Shown piece after piece: positions 36,283 through 59,478 of a DNA stretch of 64,000 nt. A program made the translations under genes and the position numbers. Source of the DNA: Maledivibacter sp. (GTDB lineage: Bacteria; Bacillota; Clostridia; Peptostreptococcales; Caminicellaceae); contig JAOASB010000052.1 in NCBI GenBank assembly GCA_025210375.1, positions 124,001 to 188,000 of the forward strand. Reading direction: 5' to 3'. Position 1 is the stretch's first letter. The number at the start of each line of letters is the position of its first letter. The notes below the pieces were generated by a model. That model did no database searches. It worked only from the letters and a program-made list of their open reading frames with translations, and was not told the origin of the DNA.

Positions 36283-36362
36283 GGTCAAGTTCTAAGTTGC
36301 AAGTTCCAAGATTTAGACAAATAGAAGAACGATTAAAAACCTAGAACTTAGAACTTTGAACT
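36283..36362 (+). repeat. Repeat A copy A5, in the atpD-atpC gap
   Basis: Left units AGTTCTA AGTTGCA AGTTCCA, then about 30 spacer bases, then right units CTAGAAC TTAGAAC TTTGAAC. The arms are inverted and would form a stem in the atp mRNA just before the atpC ribosome site. Confidence 0.8.
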
Positions 36363-36379: not shown

Positions 36380-36784
36380 ATGGCATCGACTTTCCAGCTT
36401 GAGATAGTTACTCCCGATAGAAAGTTTTTTGAAGGCGAGGTTGATATGGTTATTGCTAAGACCACGGAAGGATATACTGGTATTCTTCATGACCATGTTC
36501 CCATGGTATCACCTCTTTCTATAGGAGTAATTAAGATAAAAAAGGATAGTAAAATTATTAAGGCTACATGCTCTGGTGGCTTTATAAGCACTGATGAAGA
36601 TAAAGCTACTATTGTTACTGATTCAGCTGAATGGCCTGAGGAAATAGATGTTGTAAGGGCTGAGTCTGCTATGAAGAGAGCCGAAGAAAGAATTAAAATT
36701 AAGTCTGAAGAAACGGATATGTTAAGGGCTCAAATAGCACTTAATAAAGCATTAAATAGATTAAGACTTACAAAAGGTGAATAA
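36380..36784 (+). CDS. atpC: F-ATPase subunit epsilon
   Basis: Start at the ATG at 36380 (MASTFQLEIVTPDRKFFEGE), 6 bases after ggaggtg; 134 residues. An N-terminal beta sandwich with EGYTGILHDHVPMVSPLSIG and a C-terminal helical hairpin rich in E, R and A. It is an inhibitor and coupling subunit of the rotor. Confidence 0.95.
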   Translation: MASTFQLEIVTPDRKFFEGEVDMVIAKTTEGYTGILHDHVPMVSPLSIGVIKIKKDSKIIKATCSGGFISTDEDKATIVTDSAEWPEEIDVVRAESAMKRAEERIKIKSEETDMLRAQIALNKALNRLRLTKGE

Positions 36785-36789
36785 ACAAA

Positions 36790-36818
36790 AAAATCCCGAA
36801 GAATTCCTTCGGGATTTT
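36790..36818 (+). terminator. Terminator 1 of the atp operon
   Basis: A 12-bp stem aaaatcccgaag/cttcgggatttt (36790-36801 with 36807-36818), 5-base loop. A near-identical second terminator lies about 180 bases downstream. Confidence 0.85.
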
Positions 36819-36850
36819 CAGATTGTTGACAAAGTCAACAAGATGTCAGG

Positions 36851-36965
36851 CTGCCTAACAATCCGAAGTTCGAGGCGTGCTGAAACCGAGAGGCTGCAGC
36901 GTATATAGACATACGTAAGGGTTCTTGGTTGAAGCAACAACGAAGAAATTCGGGTTTTTAGGCAG
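36851..36965. repeat. Structured element G between two twin terminators
   Basis: About 115 bases that can fold into one long irregular stem: ctgcctaa (36851-36858) with ttaggcag (36958-36965), ccgaagttcg with cgaagaaattcgg, and gcgtat/atacgt around the apical loop atagac (36905-36910). A small hairpin gttgac-aaa-gtcaac precedes it at about 36826. Base composition is more GC than around it. It may be a mobile palindromic repeat or a small RNA; I recall similar sequences in other clostridial genomes. Confidence 0.7.
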
Positions 36966-36969
36966 AATG

Positions 36970-37001
36970 AAATCCCGAAGAATTGCTTCGGGATTTTTTT
37001 A
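36970..37001 (+). terminator. Terminator 2 after the atp operon
   Basis: An 11-bp stem aaatcccgaag/cttcgggattt (36970-36980 with 36986-36996) followed by a T-run. It differs from terminator 1 by little more than the loop. Confidence 0.8.
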
Positions 37002-37106
37002 GTGTAGTGTAAAATATTGCTTGTGATTCCTATGGTATGGTTAAAAATTAAAAAAATAATTTTTTTATTATGTATATAAGAAAACCTATGTGTCAATACT
37101 TTTAAT

Positions 37107-37185
37107 GAAAGAGGATAGAGTATAGCTCAAAATATGATTTTAAGTCCCCCTTTGCATATTTTGCTGCTGTATCTCTTCCTTTTAT
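37107..37185. repeat. Stem-loop E2, downstream of the F-ATPase operon
   Basis: Inner arms aaaatatg (37129-37136) and catatttt (37155-37162) enclose gtccccctttg, the reverse complement of the loop of E1. Outer arms (about 37113-37126 and 37166-37179) pair imperfectly. Orientation is opposite to E1. Confidence 0.7.
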
Positions 37186-37231
37186 CATTTTAGCCGGTGC
37201 AATGGCTAGTAATTGAGTAGGGTGAGGGCAA

Positions 37232-37969
37232 ATGTATAAGAAATTATTTATTTATATTTTTATTTTGACACTAAGTATATCCGTTGTATTTGGTAATTCC
37301 ATAGAGCCGTTAAAACCGGAATTAGCAGTAAAAACAGCTTTTGATGTATCAAAGGCCAAATTAGATCATATAAACATTAATAGCTATGTAAGAATTGACA
37401 ATAATTTTATAGCTATTGACAATGGAAGCAAAATATGTAATGATATTTCAGAAAAGCTTGGAATGAAAGAAATTAGTATTAAAAAAAAAATAGAAGAAAA
37501 TTCTTATGGCATTAGTGTTAAGGGGATTCTTTGTGGAGGAGTATACGCTACTATTATCCTACGGAGTTCAAAGTTGGAGAACCCTAATGAAAGTACTATA
37601 GTCATAGATATAATTGAGACCAAAGGACAGTATGCTTTAGAAAAACTATGTGATAAAATTAGAGATGTCCTATTAAGCTATGGAAAAGTGAATCTGAATG
37701 TTAATATTGTAGGATATTATAATGGATTTGTAGATAATAAGGAACTTAAGATAATAATCGACAGACTATTTGAAGCAGTTGGAGCAGAAGGGGTTGAAGG
37801 CATAGATGAAGATAATTTAATTAGCATAACAGGATATACCCCTAATATTAAAGAGCATATAAGCTATTGTGGAAAAAAGGCAAATATCAATATTGCTACA
37901 CGATTGAACAGCTATGAAAACAAAACGTATATATGGATAGGGACTCCATTGATCGTTGAGGAATATTAA
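37232..37969 (+). CDS. ywmB: YwmB-family exported protein
   Basis: 245 residues with an N-terminal hydrophobic signal or anchor (about 3-21, LFIYIFILTLSISVVFG). The remainder looks like the two-part TATA-box-like fold of the YwmB family. The role is unknown. Its position between atpC and murA is the same as in Bacillus subtilis, which supports the name. Ribosome site ggtgaggg is moderate. Confidence 0.8.
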   Translation: MYKKLFIYIFILTLSISVVFGNSIEPLKPELAVKTAFDVSKAKLDHININSYVRIDNNFIAIDNGSKICNDISEKLGMKEISIKKKIEENSYGISVKGILCGGVYATIILRSSKLENPNESTIVIDIIETKGQYALEKLCDKIRDVLLSYGKVNLNVNIVGYYNGFVDNKELKIIIDRLFEAVGAEGVEGIDEDNLISITGYTPNIKEHISYCGKKANINIATRLNSYENKTYIWIGTPLIVEEY

Positions 37970-59300: not shown

Positions 59301-59364
59301 AATATATTGACTGCAACATATTTATATGTTAATATTTTTATGTTGAATTTAATAATTAGCTTCA

Positions 59365-59466
59365 CCTTATCATGAGTGACGGAGGGATAGGCCCTATGAA
59401 GTCCAGCAACCGGTACAGGGTATACGGTGCTAAGTCCTACAGAGTATTTTATTCTGGAAGATGAGG
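59365..59466 (+). promoter_or_regulatory. SAM-I riboswitch (S-box) upstream of metK
   Basis: P1 pairs ccttatc (59365-59371) with gatgagg (59460-59466). Conserved elements follow in order: gagggataggccctatgaag, gcaaccggt, ggtgctaagtcct. It binds S-adenosylmethionine and lowers metK expression when SAM is plentiful. It fits the gene it controls. Confidence 0.96.
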
Positions 59467-59478
59467 AATTAAGATTAT

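Follow-up and report, generated by a model that had tools for sequence, protein, structure and literature searches.

Several bacterial mobile sequences are known that are short and structured or that leave unusual marks at their target sites. MITEs are moved by a partner insertion sequence (IS), and bcr1, ERIC and NEMIS are examples of bacterial MITEs and structured repeats. Long, variable target duplications are listed for IS1182 in ISfinder, and long target duplications are also known for the IS1202 family. SPRITE, BOX and RUP are further structured repeats of bacteria (PMC10969869), and the IS1202 family is described as targeting dif/pdif sites (PMC10132070). The closest described systems are IS1272 and TnSha1, members of the IS1182 family from Staphylococcus. 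According to the two reports, these insert without a sequence consensus into hairpins that are often terminators, several of them confirmed as such by RNA-seq according to the authors; the target hairpin is lost wholly or in part, with no duplication (PMC5678879, PMC4923244). Duplication of a whole stem-loop is drawn as a model only (pathway b; PMC5678879). No earlier description of the duplication of a whole terminator by a MITE was found in the parts of the literature that were searched, including passages of PMC5678879, PMC4923244, PMC3196728 and PMC10969869. Here, we describe a 151-nt element downstream of atpC in Maledivibacter sp., which in our assessment is quite probably a non-autonomous transposable element (MITE) whose transposase recognizes stem-loops, here intrinsic terminators, by their shape and not by their sequence. 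Like IS1272 and TnSha1 it targets stem-loops by structure, and their transposases belong to the broad family of the partner proposed below. Whereas these systems delete the hairpin in whole or in part, the present element, which is 151 nt long and carries no transposase gene, is found with its target hairpin completely duplicated.

The window, i.e., the whole stretch of 64,000 nt that was analyzed, contains a gene that by its sequence is named atpC (F1 epsilon subunit; 36380-36784, + strand; ORF listed from an in-frame TTG at 36356), and this is the gene whose terminator was the insertion target. It is followed by two 28-nt stem-loops, the left one at 36791-36818 and the right one at 36970-36997 (both + strand; the right one placed by sequence comparison and terminator scan). 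Each has a perfect stem with arms of 12 and 11 nt and a loop of 5, their starts are 179 nt apart and they are equal at 27/28 positions, which bears out the two terminators with the same stem that had been reported in the initial annotation. An outward A-tract, read from the sequence, lies at the left hairpin (36787-36793, + strand) and would be a U-tract for transcripts coming from the right. The T-tract of the right hairpin (36994-37000, + strand; sequence and terminator scan) is presumably the functional terminator end for atpC transcripts. Between the two stem-loops, a foldable element of 115 bases had been proposed. A stable fold is indeed present, with -66.9 kcal/mol for 36814-36975 against -35.0 +/- 3.7 for shuffled sequences (z -8.6, 0/200), and includes the apical GCGTAT/ATACGT hairpin as it had been recognized. 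The inserted unit is not 115 but 151 nt long (36819-36969, + strand), with boundaries based on about 80 copies in the same genome and on those in relatives. It comprises two hairpins. The left-end one is short, CAGATTGTTGAC-AAA-GTCAACAAGATG (36819-36845, + strand; helix 1, with compensated pairs), and the other is long and imperfect (36847-36969, + strand), is bounded by CAGGCTGCCTAA...TTAGGCAG and has conserved internal loops and the apical GCGTATA...ATACGT. The final bases of the copy in the window are GAATG, where the element usually ends with GCCTG. The ORFs overlapping the element are all short (43 aa on the + strand, and 92 aa on the - strand, the latter extending beyond the element).

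Four further genomes of the family were searched for atpC, and all four contain an orthologue; in the 330 nt read after it, each has a single terminator and lacks the element. The lone terminator in one of these genomes (G002) has the same stem, AAATCCCGAA...TTCGGGATTT, with a different loop, and is, judged by this stem, the empty site. In another (G003), the DNA past the terminator is recognizably the same as that around 37060-37200 of the window. At atpC, a single terminator would in this way have become terminator-element-terminator. The adjacent region between atpC and a DUF1779 gene has a feature of its own: a conserved hairpin at 37100-37200 (+ strand) with the loop motif GATTTT(A/C)AGTCCCCCTTTGCATAT, the core of which is present in 5/5 same-family genomes including this one, while its stems change. 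It folds at z -5.1, has no Rfam match at gathering score and is possibly an undescribed RNA motif. Elsewhere in the window, a SAM riboswitch is located at 59364-59467 (+ strand; RF00162, 86 bits).

The element is highly repeated in the 4.56-Mb genome. Its internal motif occurs at 81 places, its left-end motif at 80 and its right-part motif at 79, each with at most 3 mismatches and with 0 places for the reversed-pattern control; a DNA search of the same genome gave at least 48 matches, with 40 of 109 candidates scored. The initial annotation had asked for a genome search, taking the lack of further copies as evidence against its reading, and this is contradicted by about 80 dispersed copies. 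For comparison of the copies, 78 fetched regions holding copies were combined with the window. BLAST on this set gave 86 matches longer than 60 nt and none for the remnant L088; after removal of four self-complementary matches and one of a second subfamily, 81 were kept, 74 of them full length. The full-length copies are 84.8-99.3% identical to the consensus, with a median of 92.2%. Being short (151 nt), free of a transposase gene and dispersed over 81 places, the element has the general properties of a MITE. Phage and plasmid collections gave no match to it at E 1e-5.

Several variants accompany the main group of copies. The second subfamily in the same genome (L125, L130, L103, minus strand) has the same ends with other stem sequences (CTTGCTT...GCAAG), and its loci L125 and L130 also lie between duplicated hairpins. 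Two deletion derivatives were seen, one around position 976 of L127, in which the long hairpin is gone and the duplicated terminator kept, and one around 1928 of L124 (minus strand), in which the left-end hairpin is fused to the right flank. In L015 and L114 of this genome and in L073 of Alkaliphilus peptidifermentans, elements stand in tandem, separated by copies of one hairpin, which suggests that the duplicated hairpin was a target for renewed insertion or a site of recombination.

Many copies demonstrate the insertion pattern. A stem-loop specific to the locus is present on both sides of 70 of the 74 full-length copies, as judged by a local score of at least 12 between the flanks, while left and right flanks taken from different copies matched in 10/5402 cases. 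Among the other four, L105 has a visibly diverged pair and three have no matching left hairpin. The duplications of the 70 copies are 14-34 bp long (median 23); the paired hairpins are identical in 31/70 and differ by at most one base in 57/70. When the empty site was modeled by rejoining the flanks, a hairpin across the center of the duplication was obtained in 70/70, with its dyad at most 1 nt from the center in 60/70 and at most 2 nt in 67/70. A stricter palindromy score, in which pairs are counted inward from both ends of the duplication, gave at least 5 unbroken pairs in 26/70; because of mutated or one-base-shifted ends this score is too strict, and the dyad test was used. The feet of the stems often lie outside the cut sites, with A/T pairing continuing further out, and the length of the duplication does not correlate with the measured length of the stem-loop (r = 0.10, 70 copies). 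A cut exactly at the foot of the stem was considered and is unsupported by these two observations, which leave centering as the supported property: the two cuts are placed symmetrically around the hairpin. One of the two readings first offered for the locus, that the terminator was duplicated upon insertion, is strongly supported by the dispersed copies, the locus-specific duplicated hairpins and the empty site in a relative. The element resembles the IS1202 family in having long target duplications and differs from it in its terminator targets and in lengths that vary from 14 to 34 bp; duplications of the IS1202 type were set aside as an explanation, as those seen here vary in length and are centered on a dyad.

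The sequences next to the duplications indicate what kind of hairpin is targeted. Outside the duplications of the 70 copies, an average of 4.0 out of 7 bases are T on the right side and 4.6 out of 7 are A on the left side, and by this composition the targets look like transcription terminators. As neither tract is enclosed by the hairpin pair, the outward T-tract of each hairpin is retained and only the inward one is lost, and termination is probably preserved from both directions. Transcripts from either side would read through the first hairpin and the element and would end at the second hairpin. With each hairpin keeping its outward T-tract the insertion would be nearly neutral, which would explain the high copy number. 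In a rough open-frame test of the 74 copies, 26 are placed between convergent genes, 17 and 19 have a gene directed at them solely from the left and solely from the right, respectively, and 12 have no gene reading in from either side, with no orientation bias toward upstream genes. This null result bears on the idea that the element was once mobile and is now kept in the 3'-UTR as a domesticated RNA hairpin that shields the 3' ends of upstream messages or takes part in their processing. The conservation of the core with compensatory changes across several families and the matches of a core model in further families of the class (see below) agree with such a role, whereas the lack of orientation bias in this rough test and the absence of the element after atpC in the four relatives argue against it, and we consider it very unlikely.

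Relatives of the element occur in other Clostridia. A match was found in 13/98 genomes, this one included, and 9 of the 97 others carry clear relatives, a count that leaves out G054, G063 and G089 with matches of only 26-49 bp; by eye, the match in G063 appears to lie inside a murA-like coding sequence. A pattern scan of named genomes yielded at least 109 stretches, in Alkaliphilus peptidifermentans, A. pronyensis, A. serpentinus, A. transvaalensis, Natronincola peptidivorans and Anaerovirgula multivorans and in two MAGs, one labeled Tepidibacillus decaturensis and the other PL23a_bin.55. These 109 listed stretches and 10 loci of G095, G011, G022, G073 and G062 served as input for a profile search, which gave at least 139 matches; 70 of these were full copies, and the other 69, being incomplete or too close to the end of a contig, were excluded. 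Among the matches listed, a duplicated hairpin is present in 61/70 full copies, against 7/4830 for mispaired flanks, so that the target-site duplication that marks a MITE is found here as well as at 70/74 copies in the genome under study. The duplications in relatives, again among the matches listed, measure 13-41 bp and are more loosely centered, with the dyad within 1 nt in 42/61. Nine of the 70 listed full copies have no matching pair; several of these have two different hairpins, as is expected after recombination between copies. In L224 and L054 of Anaerovirgula multivorans, three cores are repeated in tandem every 125 nt, and terminator hairpins apparently are missing from between them, which apparently is a different mode of amplification.

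The core of the element is conserved as a structure. As had been proposed in the initial annotation, covariation was analyzed, using an alignment of 25 divergent elements (24 representatives with less than 87% identity from 138, and the copy in the window). The core covaries strongly: the consensus structure has 33 pairs, 21 of which are changed on both sides, and the covariation score is 0.389 versus 0.162 +/- 0.012 for shuffles, and does not exceed 0.136 when the partners are shifted by 1-3 columns, a score that is favored by the derivation of the structure from the same alignment, with shuffles that ignore relatedness. Covariation would fit a hairpin of RNA or of DNA alike. This matters for the second reading first offered for the locus, a small RNA gene that has its own terminator and is transcribed, starting from a promoter close to the left hairpin, into a separate regulatory RNA. 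The very stable fold, the strong covariation and the terminator downstream are as such a gene would have them. Covariation, however, also fits a DNA hairpin, about 80 copies lie at different loci, and the flanking terminators are locus-specific target duplications that belong to the insertion sites. On the + strand, no sigma-70-like promoter site is found in 36500-37376, no Rfam 15 family reaches gathering score in the region, and the 12 sub-threshold Rfam matches all overlap a terminator hairpin. With the stable fold as the one point left in its favor, a small RNA gene is very unlikely; a transcript of the element may exist.

A covariance model of the core matches 6/291 genomes of the class, this one included, under stricter filters. 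At nine loci of distant matches no matched hairpin pair is found, and the matches in G253 look like another element. Five loci of G006 and G015 (L334, L336, L340, L341 and L344) have the core hairpin with different ends, partly in tandem, and a left-end hairpin is not clearly present in them. More than one type of transposon may carry the core.

The genome itself offers no obvious source of the transposase. The IS1182-type transposase domains PF05598 and PF13751 have 0 matches each, and the sole PF01609 match has no such ends and no duplicated hairpin. In 40 of the 110 contig ends, which were read, matching terminal repeats occur only as two copies of the element and one weak match. The mobilizing enzyme may be lost from this genome, unassembled or different. 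Among ten element-bearing genomes searched, PF13751 is present in six and absent from this genome (G000), G095, G011 and G073. The most informative host is A. peptidifermentans, with 13 PF13751 matches. Ten of these are part of an IS whose right terminus, GAGGTTGATTACAAACCACC, adjoins a stem-loop or palindrome in 10/10 places; the other three are another IS, the visible end of which, by eye, has no adjoining hairpin. The 27-bp hairpin at one of the ten right termini, AGGAATCCTATCTATAATAGGATTCCT, occurs in exactly two places of that genome, one at each of two IS ends that lie on separate contigs and have different termini, and one of which carries the IS1182-type PF13751 domain. From the shared hairpin, we infer that both termini probably belong to one IS. 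The second terminus, GAGACTGTTGACAAAGTC, matches the first 18 nt of the left-end hairpin of the element described here, CAGATTGTTGACAAAGTC, at 16/18 positions, and in some copies, e.g., L039, the right end of the element is by eye CAGGCTGTTGACAAAC read inwards. Among the loci examined, the left end of the IS adjoins a stem-loop in 2/2 places seen, the second of them at a terminator. Terminal inverted repeats shared with an autonomous partner, as expected of a MITE, are therefore present, with the partner in another genus and each of its ends on a contig of its own.

It appears that this type of duplication is also produced by an IS with an IS1182-type domain, which in addition shares terminal sequence with the element, and the element is probably moved by a transposase of this type. 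Such a transposase would insert the MITE by a structure-directed route, presumably with cruciform extrusion of the target hairpin, and thereby duplicate the whole terminator. The A. peptidifermentans IS is similar to the element in the type of target, in the duplication of the hairpin (27 bp, one case with both sides) and in the left end (16/18). It differs from the 151-nt element in carrying a transposase and in visible ends without the long-hairpin core; because the core is absent from these ends, the element is not a plain internal-deletion derivative of the IS. Nine PF13751 loci from elsewhere (L138, L139, L142, L143, L144, L146, L149, L151 and L153), which were scanned for direct repeats 1200-2600 nt apart, have no duplicated hairpin; their sole direct-repeat pair, in L144, is 17 nt long and without a hairpin, and L143 has a 12-nt duplication that by eye apparently lies inside a gene. 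Hence not every PF13751 IS behaves like that of A. peptidifermentans. Of the two features that would place the element in an IS1182 system, targeting of palindromes or stem-loops is seen in the dyad-centered duplications (60/70), while a DDE transposase of the PF13751/PF05598 type is not found in the host genome. The element works like an IS1182-driven MITE, and membership is not claimed for this genome.

The mobile element may instead be driven by a different enzyme, such as an HUH enzyme, a Cas1-like integrase or a reverse transcriptase, in which case the link to IS1182 would be a coincidence of ends. DDE enzymes, which cut with a fixed stagger, do not usually leave duplications of variable length, and CRISPR adaptation also duplicates a palindromic repeat. 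Both points count for such an enzyme, as does the lack of PF13751/PF05598 in this genome and of PF13751 in three other host genomes. Against it stands the PF13751 IS of A. peptidifermentans, which shows the same duplication and shares 16/18 terminal bases at its other end, and we regard a different enzyme as unlikely. A movement by an IS1182-type transposase is retained here as the preferred reading. Going further, the core may be a self-standing conserved unit with a target duplication set by shape, in which the whole extruded terminator hairpin, of any length, is duplicated. Its internal loops would then be a protein's specific ligand or a working RNA, maintained throughout Clostridia without dependence on a particular insertion sequence, and terminators would be a reusable safe harbor for mobile DNA. 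This extension is tentative, and we lean somewhat against it.

In being short, non-coding, structured, present in high copy number and mostly intergenic, the element is like the bacterial MITEs and structured repeats. Unlike in other bacterial MITEs, the target duplication comprises a whole terminator, varies in length and is centered on the hairpin dyad, and conservation of the core extends across genera. At least 131 natural examples (70 here and 61 elsewhere) are now available in which a whole stem-loop is duplicated instead of deleted, and these offer a direct test of structure-dependent DNA transposition. For genome annotation, paired identical terminators around a stable hairpin are a reason to consider a MITE before a small RNA. 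For the bacteria that carry it, such a repeat could fill the genome without disturbing transcription, as it would preserve the terminator in both directions.
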